Below, one piece after another: positions 46,435 through 49,601 of a stretch of 64,000 nt of DNA (its first letter is position 1; each line of letters starts with the position of its first letter). This stretch comes from Massilia solisilvae (GTDB taxonomy: Bacteria > Pseudomonadota > Gammaproteobacteria > Burkholderiales > Burkholderiaceae_D). The DNA is taken from contig NZ_JANUGV010000001.1 of the NCBI RefSeq assembly GCF_024753215.1, positions 620,001 to 684,000 of the forward strand, written 5' to 3'. Below the pieces are notes generated by a model, which saw only the letters and a program-made list of their open reading frames with translations, did no database searches and was not told where the DNA came from. The position numbers and the translations under genes are program-made.

Positions 46435-46447
46435 CGGGTGGCGCCGG

Positions 46448-47500
46448 TCAGCGGCCCTGCGCCGAGAGCAGCCGCTCGATGCGCTCGGCGCTGGACGGAT
46501 GGCTGGCCGTGTATTCGAGGCTCTTCGACAGCCAGCGCGGCATGCTGCGCGTCGCCCGTGCGCGCGGTGTGTTTTCCAGCTCGTAGAACAGGTCGGCCAG
46601 CGGTTCGGTCGGCATGCCCTGCGCATGCAGCGCCTTGATGGCGTACAGGTCGGCCTCGGTCTCCATCGCGCGCGAATAGCTCGTCTTCATCAGCACCGCC
46701 GGCACGCCCGCAACGGCGGCGCTGAAGTCGCCGAACAGCGCCGCCGACAAGGCCGCGGTGAGCGACGTACGCGCGAGCGTACGGGCGCTGTGGCGCTGCT
46801 CGATGTGCCCGATCTCGTGCGCCAGCACGCCGGCCAGCTGCGCGGTTTCGCCGCTGCCGAAGTCGGCCCGCTTGCCGAGGATGAGCTTGACCATGTCGTC
46901 GGTGAGCACGATGGTCCCGTCCGGAAGCGCGAGCGCGTTCGCGCCCAGCGCGCGCGAGCTGCGCACCAGCAGGCGGATCGGCACGCGTGGATGCGGCGGC
47001 ATTACCCGCGCCATCACGTTGTCGATGGCGGCAAGGCGCTGGTCGGAGAACCGCGATTGCGTCAGGATCTGCTGCCTTTCCAGGCTCGCCAGCACGCTCT
47101 TGCCCATGCTGGCGTCCACGCTTGCAGGCAGGCGCGCCGCGATCATCTCGGTGGCCGCCGGCAGGCCCCACAGCAGGGTCGCGGCCAGCACCAGCAACAG
47201 CAGCACCAGCGCGGCCAGCGCCGCCGGCCAGCGGGCCTGCCACCGCACCACCGGCGTCGCGCGGTAGCCGAGCGCGCCCGCAAGCTCGGCGTGCGCCGCG
47301 CCGGTCACCTCGCAGCGTGCGCCGTCGCTGAAGTACACCACGGCCGGCGCACCGGCGAACGGCTCGGCCAGCCGTGCCTGTCCGCTGGGGTAGATCCGCG
47401 CTATCCCAGGGCCCGCCACCACGACCGTGCCGGCGCTGGTTTCAAGTTCGACCCGGTGCATGCGGGCGCTCTGGCCATCGAAGTAGATCGCGCTGGTCAT
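46448..47500 (-). CDS. M48-family membrane metalloprotease
   Basis: A 350-residue protease with zinc motif H228-E-I-G-H232 (LAGVLAHEIGHIEQRHSARTLAR) and a second Glu in RAMETEADLYAIKALH. One transmembrane helix lies at about 83-105 (AALAALVLLLLVLAATLLWGL), preceded by a small N-terminal cytoplasmic domain (1-80) that starts MTSAIYFDGQSARMHRV. The catalytic part is like M48/BepA. It starts 7 bp after the YjgN gene ends; this DUF898-M48 pairing is seen in other proteobacteria and suggests the two work together in the membrane. Confidence 0.9.
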   Translation of the reverse strand: MTSAIYFDGQSARMHRVELETSAGTVVVAGPGIARIYPSGQARLAEPFAGAPAVVYFSDGARCEVTGAAHAELAGALGYRATPVVRWQARWPAALAALVLLLLVLAATLLWGLPAATEMIAARLPASVDASMGKSVLASLERQQILTQSRFSDQRLAAIDNVMARVMPPHPRVPIRLLVRSSRALGANALALPDGTIVLTDDMVKLILGKRADFGSGETAQLAGVLAHEIGHIEQRHSARTLARTSLTAALSAALFGDFSAAVAGVPAVLMKTSYSRAMETEADLYAIKALHAQGMPTEPLADLFYELENTPRARATRSMPRWLSKSLEYTASHPSSAERIERLLSAQGR

Positions 47501-47507
47501 CGATGCC

Positions 47508-48677
47508 TCACCACGAAATGTCCACGCCAATGAAGTCGGCCGCGCCGTCGCCGGCAGCGCCGGCCTGGCGCGGCGCGGCGCCGCCCAGCACCTCATCGAA
47601 TTCGCCCTGCACCTGGACCGACAAATGCTCGGCGCGGTAGCGATACACGTTGACGACGGCAAATGGCCTGTACAGGCCGAGCGTAAGCAGCGTCAGCAGG
47701 ACATTGACCGCCTGCAGCCGCAGCATCCCCCATGCCTTCATGCTTGACTCGATGCGCACACCCGCGAACGAGGTGCTCGACCAGACAAGGTTGTTGATGC
47801 GCACGTGCATGTAAGGCGCGGCTGCCAGGAACACGACATAGCCGCCGAGCGCTCCGCTAATCACGGTAAGGACCCAGTTCCCGGCCCCGCTCATCATGGC
47901 GGCCTTGCTCAGGTGGGTCACGCCCAGCCGTGCTGCGGTCGAAATCACCAGGGTGATGACGACCCCGAGCACAATCCACAGCGCGCACATGAGGTATGGC
48001 CCGTAGAACTTCCATGGGCGCACCCCGTAGCGCGCCTGCTGGTCGCCGTACAGGATGTTCGCGTGCTGGTAACGCTTCATCCTGCCGTGCATGAGCGGCC
48101 AGCCGAGGTACAGGAGCATGACGGCAGCGGCAAGCCGGCTTCTCGGATCCATGGCCAGCAGCGCGCCCGGCAGCAGCACGGTCAGCGCCGGCGGCAGGTA
48201 GGCCAGGTAGGCGCCGCGCACGCTGCCGCCAAATCCGAACGGCAGGCCACGGTAGGCAGTGTTGGACAGCCTGAACCTGAGCGCCGAATGCATCAGGAAC
48301 GGCAGCCAGAGAATCAGGGCTGCGGCGAAGCCAGCGCCGACCGCGAGCGAAAACCCGAACGCGTATTGGTAGCCGAGTAGCAGGGCCACGGCGATCAGGC
48401 GCCCCTTGAGGATGGACTTCGGGTCGCCGGTGAAGTCGAAGCAAGCGCCGGCCAGTTGGGTATTGCGATAGAAGTACTGCAACCTGCGCACCTTCGCCCA
48501 CGCCGAATAGATGCCGAGCGTGGCCACCGTCAGCAGCAGGTTGACGATCCAGATGCGGAAGTACTCGTTGCCGCTGCCGGTAAAAGCCAGCGCCAGCCGC
48601 CGGGGTTCCGGCAGGGCGGGCTCCTCAGGTTGCGGCTGCATCGCAGTCTCGGCGCCTGTCTCCTGTAGGTTATGCAT
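47508..48677 (-). CDS. YjgN-family (DUF898) membrane protein
   Basis: A protein of up to 389 residues (ATG 48677; ATG 48641, MQPQPEEPALPEP, is an alternative). It has about six to eight hydrophobic helices and the YjgN landmarks FTGSGNEYFRIWIVNLLLTVATLGIYSAWAKVRRLQYFYRNTQLAG and, repeated later, MLRLQAVNVLLTLLTLGLYRPFAVVNVYRYRAEHL. The internal duplication (FRIW...LGIYSAWAKVR and ...LGLYRPFAVVNVYR) is part of the family. Function unknown; first gene of the operon with the M48 protease. Confidence 0.88.
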   Translation of the reverse strand: MHNLQETGAETAMQPQPEEPALPEPRRLALAFTGSGNEYFRIWIVNLLLTVATLGIYSAWAKVRRLQYFYRNTQLAGACFDFTGDPKSILKGRLIAVALLLGYQYAFGFSLAVGAGFAAALILWLPFLMHSALRFRLSNTAYRGLPFGFGGSVRGAYLAYLPPALTVLLPGALLAMDPRSRLAAAVMLLYLGWPLMHGRMKRYQHANILYGDQQARYGVRPWKFYGPYLMCALWIVLGVVITLVISTAARLGVTHLSKAAMMSGAGNWVLTVISGALGGYVVFLAAAPYMHVRINNLVWSSTSFAGVRIESSMKAWGMLRLQAVNVLLTLLTLGLYRPFAVVNVYRYRAEHLSVQVQGEFDEVLGGAAPRQAGAAGDGAADFIGVDISW

Positions 48678-48989
48678 GATGCGTAAGGGCTTTCTGGGCA
48701 GTGGGCGAAACCGCAAGTCTAACGTGCAGGCCACCGGGTTTGTTATTCTTGCTACCCTTTTTTTGGACAGTCGTTCTCCCGGCCAGCAGTGGCCGGCGCC
48801 GCCGGACGAGCGCACCGCCCGGGGGGGCCGCGCGCGCCTTCGGCCGGGTCGGGGGAATCGCCGCCAGACCACTGGCGCATCGTGTCTCTTTTCGCGTTCT
48901 CGTTCTGTCTCTTTTTGTCGATTTTGAACTCATCGCTGAGATGAGACTCAAATCGACAGGAAGAGACAAAACGAGAAAGGAAAAAGAGA
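48678..48989. other. Divergent gap with giant inverted repeat
   Basis: This 312-bp gap between the YjgN gene and the RAMA-like gene holds the promoters of both. Its right part contains most of a 129-nt inverted repeat (48873-49001). The left part is GC-rich and unremarkable apart from a CCGGCCAGCAGTGGCCGG palindrome near 48780-48797. No further gene is seen. Confidence 0.7.
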
Positions 48990-49001
48990 ATGGATGCGCC
49001 A
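48873..49001 (+). repeat. 129-nt in-register inverted repeat over a translation start
   Basis: Arms 48873-48934 and 48940-49001 pair without a single gap around loop GCTGA (48935-48939): every pair sums to 97874. I count 49 Watson-Crick pairs of 62, in blocks of 9 (TGGCGCATC/GATGCGCCA), 8 (TCTCTTTT/AAAAGAGA), 8 (TTCTCGTT/AACGAGAA), 8 (TGTCTCTT/AAGAGACA), 8 (GTCGATTT/AAATCGAC) and 6 (CTCATC/GATGAG). The AGGA ribosome site (48978-48981) lies in one internal loop, the start codon (48990-48992) in another. Confidence 0.93.
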
Positions 49002-49601
49002 TCCGAGTTCCTGGCCCCCACCCACGCGCTGCGCCGCCTTGCCGCCTTTCTCAAGGAAAAGGGCAGCAAACTGTCCACTTCCGACGCCGCCACCATGGCC
49101 ATCAACCAGTGGATCGCATGCGAGCGCGGCCAATTCACGTCGCTCGCGCCCACGCCCACGCGCGGCTATCAATGGAAGACGTTGTTTTTGCCCGAGGGTA
49201 CTGAACTTCGCGCAACAATGAATGGCGAAACGGCCTATGCCCGGGTGGAAGGCGACGACCTGCGCTACCGCGGGCGCGCGGTGTCGCCACGCCAAATGCT
49301 GCTCGACCTGGGTGGCAAGGGCCGCAACGCCTGGCGCGAGGTCTGGGTGCTGCTGCCAGGCGAGCGCAAGTGGCAGCCGGCCTCGCGCCTGCGCCGGGTG
49401 GCAGAAGGCGAGGCGCCTGCGCGTTTGGTGTCGCCGGCCGAAGCGATGTCGGCCGCTGCGGCATGCATGTCCGAAACCCTGAAGACAGCGCTGGCCCTGG
49501 TCGAGCAAGCCAACCAGCAAGCCTTGCCCGCTTTCGAGCGCCGCACTTCTCCGCAGCGCCGCGCCAGCGACGCGCTGGGCGACGACGTGCCGTTGGACTA
49601 G
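48990..49601 (+). CDS. Uncharacterised protein with RAMA-like domain
   Basis: A 203-residue cytoplasmic protein. Residues about 8-45 are helical ([30 protein letters not shown]). Residues about 58-135 ([66 protein letters not shown]) resemble the small RAMA/DUF4357-like domain found with restriction and DNA-modification proteins. The C-terminal third is Ala-rich helix then a charged tail. The ribosome site AAAGGA (48976-48981) and ATG sit inside a large hairpin, so translation may be structurally controlled. Domain call is by resemblance. Confidence 0.75.

Follow-up and report, generated by a model that had tools for sequence, protein, structure and literature searches.

The inverted repeat at positions 48873-49001 of the window, the 64,000-nt stretch of Massilia solisilvae DNA analyzed here, is best read as a DNA operator that is probably bound by the protein of the gene family it precedes and used for autoregulation, a reading to which we assign a probability of about 0.6 from sequence comparison. 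In the proposed mechanism, an ECF (sigmaE-type) promoter would lie between two arrays that mirror each other, each made of about four 10-bp repeats and capped by an outer box; the right array and its box extend across the ribosome site as far as the first codons. The binding protein, most likely the gene's own product, would occupy the repeats cooperatively, along one face of the helix and on both sides of the promoter, and once bound would shut the promoter, so that the gene would regulate itself. As the repeat sequence differs among family members, the operators would be largely private, and related palindromes that lack a gene could be either additional targets of these proteins or operators that outlasted their genes. 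The sequences show the architecture and its conservation, the promoter core with its spacing, the substitution pattern and the gene-less copies; from these we infer the identity of the binding protein, the repression, the start point of transcription and the sigma factor.

Architecture of the window locus

An inverted-repeat search placed the left arm at 48873-48934 and the right arm at 48940-49001, each of 62 nt, 79% complementary and separated by a 5-nt spacer. Base-by-base pairing found 49 of the 62 arm positions in Watson-Crick pairs, in a single gap-free register. Both results bear out the sequence-only reading, which had claimed 62-nt arms with 49 Watson-Crick pairs and no insertion or deletion. 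The repeat encloses the AGGA (48978-48981) and the ATG (48990-48992) of a 203-aa gene, and the right arm ends within codon 4. The AGGA and the ATG lie in or adjoin mismatched spots of the arms, in agreement with the claim that the Shine-Dalgarno (SD) sequence and the start codon occupy small internal loops. The RNA fold of 48860-49020 that had been proposed as a check proved strongly stable, at -83.7 kcal/mol against -42.8 +/- 4.0 in 200 shuffles (z -10.2), none of which (0/200) was as good.

Each arm is a tandem array of 10-bp repeats, the right arm mirroring the left. The left array (48884-48926, plus strand), defined by sequence, periodicity and a half-site pattern, has units starting at 48884, 48897, 48907 and 48917, a spacing of 13-10-10; the 13-bp step between the outermost repeat and its neighbour in the window is found in the family too. 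The half-site pattern recovers the 13-10 spacing at 48884-48911 in the left arm and matches the minus strand of the right arm at 48963-48990 with 2 mismatches. Outside the arrays, a left outer box read in the sequence, TGGCGCATC (48873-48881), mirrors the first codons of the gene, where the right outer box GATGCGCCA (48993-49001), likewise read in the sequence, lies within the coding start. Between the arrays is a promoter-like core, TTGAAC-N17-CTCAAA (48924-48952, plus strand), of the ECF/sigmaE type, with a -35 GAAC at 48926-48929 and a -10 element at 48947-48952. From the core, transcription would be expected to start near 48960, and the putative 5' leader (48953-48989, plus strand) would consist of the right-arm repeats including the SD sequence. 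Left of the repeat, the stretch at about 46435-48843, which contains long ORFs on the opposite strand, has no match at the syntenic M. agilis locus.

The gene and its protein family

The gene (48990-49601, plus strand; ORF and family alignment) encodes a member of an unnamed family with a conserved GYxWK...RNAW region. Searches of NCBIfam and PHROG placed its product in no family, Pfam gave nothing that reached its cut-off, and solved structures gave it a chance-level match only (E 0.51). The description of the gene as RAMA-like is not supported: a search of its own genome with Pfam RAMA (PF18755) at E<=10 gave two other places and not this gene, and the other Pfam searches of the window protein and the family gave no RAMA match either. 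A phage or plasmid origin was rejected as well, with no match in phages and one weak match on a Rhizobium plasmid (36% identity over 40% of the protein). The family is large and, because the searches made of the open-access literature found no description of it or of the palindrome site, both are regarded as undescribed.

Within the genus, 8 of 62 genomes have homologues, and across the GTDB family a profile search detected members in 81 of 392 genomes, distributed over 11 of 44 genera. The gene family is multi-copy in Massilia, Duganella, Rugamonas and Pseudoduganella; as many as 8 matches were counted in one genome, 8 also being the number of candidates scored in most genomes. A scan of genome contigs yielded 328 relatives, 80 of which, mostly from the same four genera, were kept for locus comparison. 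The locus is syntenic in three Massilia species, and no neighbour gene family within about 2.4 kb is common to more than 9 of the 80 loci. Paralogues in the M. solisilvae genome (G000:C23:101305, C23:124135 and C12:424584) have different upstream sequences, and the C12 match has one TGA within the aligned stretch.

The protein alignment comprised the window protein and 58 others, taken from the 76 locus proteins whose start was defined; L093 and L105 were omitted from the 60 non-redundant sequences proposed. Conserved residues cluster in a GYxWK...FLP...RNAWR...W region, and the N-terminal part appears from the sequence to be helical. Weak ribbon-helix-helix matches (RHH_1 in 2 of 59 members, best E 0.032; PSK_trans_fac in one; CdrS in one) occurred among many noise matches, and no alignment member was shown to pass a Pfam cut-off.

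Conservation of the palindrome across the family

The palindrome was scored from -280 to +60 around the match start and compared with 1085 control stretches from the same loci. It exceeded the 99th percentile of the controls in 50 of 80 family loci and the 95th in 57, and is therefore not the local accident that the sequence-only reading had weighed. That reading had named orthologues without the left arm as its refutation, and this was found in part: 30 of the 80 loci fall below the 99% threshold, among them the syntenic M. terrae gene (L037), where arm complementarity is weak. L037 nevertheless keeps the core and the 10-bp repeats, as expected if the repeats matter more than the pairing.

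The repeats themselves are widespread. The best period was 10 in 70 of 79 loci, and identity at lag 10 was 0.48 in the left arm and 0.52 in the right, compared with about 0.30 at lags 9 and 11. Paired substitutions, which had been suggested as a test between relatives, were found as covariation of the arms between loci. In 78 loci unselected for pairing, the two arms of a locus resembled each other as reverse complements with a score of 0.44, against 0.167 between loci and a permutation maximum of 0.237, whereas similarity in direct orientation was 0.008; 22 loci exceeded the 95th percentile of cross pairs. The outer boxes behave in the same way, the first codons being mirrored far upstream in a sequence that varies between loci and matches within a locus. 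Their score was 7.85 for own pairs against 5.29 for cross pairs, a difference reached in 0 of 2000 permutations (79 loci, unselected for pairing). The 95th percentile of cross pairs was exceeded by 39 of the 79 loci and the 99th by 9. A further own-versus-cross test by zone used only 28 loci, picked for good pairing and register, and its own values are consequently biased upward; the outer-box and arm-similarity tests are the versions without selection for pairing. The loci are related, and non-redundant subsets were used only in the core column profile, the per-position pairing, the periodicity analysis and the zone test.

These data bear on a neutral or mobile origin, in which the palindrome would be an inverted duplication or MITE-like insertion, its symmetry would come from template switching and the gene-less copies would be relics. 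Template switching can keep palindromes symmetric, and the gene-less copies do include likely relics of lost genes. However, the locus is syntenic in three Massilia species, the promoter core and its spacing are conserved, and the left arms copy the SD sequence and the T of the ATG no more than chance (15%). Copies in the same genome are only 71-74% alike over 117-123 nt and not near-identical; given this and the synteny, a mobile element or MITE was rejected. We consider a neutral or mobile origin highly unlikely overall.

The promoter-like core

A GAAC-N17/18-GTC-like core was present in 78 of 81 loci, with a spacing of 17 in 73 and of 18 in 5 although ten spacings were allowed. The same scoring found it on the opposite strand in 5 of 80 loci and in 156 of 1323 other stretches (12%) at any spacing, 23 of them at spacing 17. 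Among 54 non-redundant loci with spacing 17, the T, the C and the last A of the -10 element were invariant, the penultimate A was conserved at 98% and the spacer was near random; this conservation is partly by selection, as a locus entered the profile only if it had GAAC and agreed with GTCTAA at 4 or more of the 6 positions. At the first -10 base, where 87% of loci have G, the window has C. From the -10 element to the start codon there are 37 nt in the window, and the family clusters at 37-38 and 46-49 nt when the start is set by rule as the first in-frame start codon after the core. The palindrome register, near -25, -14, -4, +5 or +16 in the 50 loci and thus about one repeat apart, shifts like the start-codon distance in steps of about 10 bp.

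The consensus of ECF/sigmaE promoters is GGAACTT-N15/16-GTCTAA, and we take the family core to be such a promoter. It shares with them the GAAC and GTC(T/C/A)AA elements and the 17 bp between GAAC and GTC, and differs from them in sitting inside a repeat palindrome. By this consensus, as generally known, the loci possess the fixed-spacing GAAC/GTC core of an ECF-dependent gene, and the M. solisilvae genome carries an rpoE gene (G000:C1:1215430). Genome-wide, the core pattern gave 15 matches against 16 in a reversed control and is uninformative alone; one own-genome match near rpoE resembles a terminator and was left uncounted. By eye, the sequence GAACTT-N16-TCTTAA immediately before rpoE (L163, from 1558) resembles the family core and is a possible sigmaE autopromoter.

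DNA operator or RNA structure

The stability of the predicted fold invites the interpretation that translation is under the control of an RNA hairpin. The hairpin could be a switch, or it could block read-through: transcripts from upstream would fold back and hide the start codon while those from the central promoter, lacking the left arm, would be translated. The position of the core is compatible with the second form, as it would leave the gene's own transcripts free of the hairpin, and the covariation of the outer boxes with the codons favors an RNA device as well. The same covariation counts against the operator reading to some extent, since a simple operator has no obvious need of it. Precedents, as commonly described, are the fold-back inhibition of IS10/IS50 transposase and the T4 lysozyme hairpin, where the promoter is likewise inside the repeat and the start codon in the right arm.

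The substitution pattern and the periodicity in the window family do not fit such a device. In 53 palindromes scoring at least 15, drawn from 84 stretches of which one is gene-less, mismatches comprised 156 G.U, 160 A.C and 387 others. Since selection on a sense-strand RNA should favor G.U, the near equality of G.U and A.C argues against an RNA stem, and the preference for G.U over A.C expected of an RNA thermometer, riboswitch or translational hairpin was absent. Pairing per position was followed in 41 non-redundant loci selected for a palindrome score of at least 15, with 28-37 pairs at each position. It was lowest around the SD sequence (36-59% at -11 to -8) and at the T of the ATG (15%, 33 loci), so these initiation signals are the unpaired spots of the would-be hairpin, and it reached 85-97% at most positions from +5 to +12, with 72% at +9. 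Within the repeat zone, pairing has a component of about 10 bp (p 0.0036 when anchored on the -10 element, 0.027 when anchored on the start), along with a 5-bp component that is about as strong or stronger. Because the core lies between the arms, the gene's own transcript would begin in the right arm and lack the left one, and the long ORF upstream of the window repeat is on the opposite strand. Palindromes also persist without gene and core, an argument that is weakened by the start codons some of them keep, and slow decay could account for the persistence.

Taken together, the substitution pattern and the periodicity are better accounted for by a protein that touches the DNA along one face of the helix than by an RNA stem. 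The sequence-only reading had offered a selected structure controlling translation as one of its explanations: the non-accidental nature of the repeat, the covariation of its arms and the unpaired SD sequence and ATG stand, whereas an mRNA structure that controls translation is poorly supported, given the position of the core, the lack of a G.U excess and the 10-bp periodicity. We therefore rate translational control by an RNA hairpin as quite unlikely.

For the preferred operator, further evidence comes from the proteins. Repeat similarity tracks protein similarity (59 proteins), with Mantel correlations of 0.41 for the N-terminal and 0.54 for the C-terminal region; in partial Mantel tests the C-terminal value is 0.40 and the N-terminal value 0.14, the latter within the permutation range (maximum 0.18). 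An N-terminal domain as the sole determinant of specificity was rejected on this basis. As the C-terminal region tracks the repeats better, recognition may lie there, and the idea of a ribbon-helix-helix protein is weak. The known autoregulatory ribbon-helix-helix operators, such as the MetJ met boxes, the omega heptads and the CopG operator, nevertheless resemble the present site in having tandem short repeats over their own promoter and in the cooperative binding that would be expected here. They differ from it in the 10-bp unit, the long mirrored arms and the ECF-type promoter of the window family.

Palindromes without a gene

Contig 26 of the M. solisilvae genome holds a related palindrome without a family gene, between genes that we take from their translations to be LysR-like and large oxidoreductase-like. 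M. agilis, in which one family gene was detected, has it at the equivalent position (97% identity over 3.2 kb). This palindrome (L032, 4109-4295, on contig 26; L165, 1493-1694) is longer than the window repeat, shares its repeats and lacks the promoter core.

Two pattern searches were made over the 392 genomes. Inverted repeat-unit pairs matched in 14 genomes, 12 of them gene-positive, against 21 genomes with 1 gene-positive in the reversed control; the half-site pattern matched in 36, 33 of them gene-positive, with 4 genomes in the reversed control. Fisher p values, from hand counts set against the genome list of the profile search, were 2e-7 and 2e-22, respectively, and the enrichment is partly circular, because the pattern was built from family operators and many matches are those operators. 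An early half-site pattern was mis-spaced, matched nothing, the window included, and was discarded. Inspection of 41 loci, some overlapping, showed the core in all 29 with a family match (29/29). Among the 12 without one, L195 has the core, L194 is cut by the contig end with a core-like stretch in the matched sequence, and 10 lack the core; L202 and L215 of these 10 are in gene-negative genomes and non-palindromic by eye, L213 is half-lost, and L210 and L183 are one site. L195 (about 1360-1660), with an intact core and no family gene found downstream, has the appearance of a recent gene loss.

Ten hand-picked gene-less palindromes, none with a core (0/10) and one (L189, score 14.4) under the 99% threshold, contain 515 Watson-Crick, 31 G.U, 35 A.C and 86 other pairs. 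Their arm identity peaks at lag 10 (0.45) and lag 23 (0.41), which is the 13-10 spacing seen at genes. Beside eight gene-less sites no gene remnant was found, apart from a discounted 35-residue match (E 0.007). The contig 26 site and its M. agilis counterpart have a minus-strand ATG at the equivalent place, with first residues MKAPLA compared with MNAPLA of L016; L178 and L217 keep a family-like start by eye, and L189 has ACG in place of the ATG, while a start search found no start codon at the equivalent place in L183, L190, L209, L176, L166 and L189. Given the retained ATG and family-like starts, some gene-less sites look like operators of lost genes, and some, perhaps most, of these palindromes are probably operators left after gene loss. 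When compared with 10 gene loci, only 1 of 6 gene-less sites matched the gene repeats of its own genome best, a point against the operator reading; for 2 others the top place was shared by the window gene and the orthologue of that gene in M. agilis, and 3 did not match their own best.

The shared layout of the gene-less palindromes also bears on a chromosomal centromere-like or nucleoid-organizing site, on which family proteins would build a higher-order complex, gene regulation being secondary. Rough ORF calls put 5 of 9 sites between convergent genes (L183, L190, L166, L176 and L217; 4 of 8 if the place of L166 and L217 is counted once), 3 in tandem (contig 26, L178 and L189) and 1 between divergent genes (L209), contig 26 and its counterpart being counted once. 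The shared place of L166 and L217 supports such a role, since its flanks are 84-90% identical in the two species and both sites are palindromic, with changed arms. At several gene-less sites, however, a family-type start is intact or almost intact, which fits operators whose genes were lost. In addition, no neighbour gene recurs in more than 9 of the 80 loci, a relative lacks about 100 bp of one site, and the family is patchy, in 8 of 62 genomes of the genus. L209 and L213 occupy the same chromosomal place in two species, L209 being a full palindrome and L213 lacking about 100 bp. On balance, a centromere-like or nucleoid-organizing function is decidedly improbable.

It is also unlikely, in our estimate, that the palindrome rather than the gene is the primary object. 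On that account it would represent a new class of chromosomal DNA site in Oxalobacteraceae, with mirrored 10-bp arrays and outer boxes, each site serving one member of a multi-copy family and assembling a nucleoprotein complex for segregation, a domain boundary or the sensing of DNA modification. Such sites would be retained after gene loss, often between convergent genes, and at a gene would straddle the promoter and start codon, the amount of complex setting the gene's own expression.

Relation to known sites and implications

The ParR-parC systems of plasmid R1 and its relatives, as described in PMC9426499, have 10- or 11-bp repeats bound by a protein typically of the ribbon-helix-helix family; in R1 parC ten direct repeats flank the par promoter, and the repeats differ between relatives. 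The likeness of 10-bp repeats flanking a promoter, a point in favor of a centromere-like site, is that the window-family site too has helically phased repeats on both sides of its own promoter, which is here a promoter by consensus only. The differences are several. All R1 repeats are direct, whereas the arms here are alike only as reverse complements (0.44 vs 0.008), and outer boxes close the arrays and overlap start codons. The family gene stands alone, in that no neighbour family that could supply a ParM-like partner is common to more than 9 of 80 loci within about 2.4 kb, and the fold typical of ParR-parC proteins is only weakly hinted for it. Judged by this comparison, the site is in design closest to R1 parC, and would be a variant of repeat-based operator or centromere-like sites and not a member of the class.

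The case is a caution that even an outstanding RNA hairpin prediction can mark a DNA operator, and it prompts one to ask why palindromes without a gene keep their symmetry. With a DNA target that is predictable and differs between paralogues, the co-evolution of protein and site becomes testable in this family from sequence alone, and its members could supply an orthogonal set of operators.
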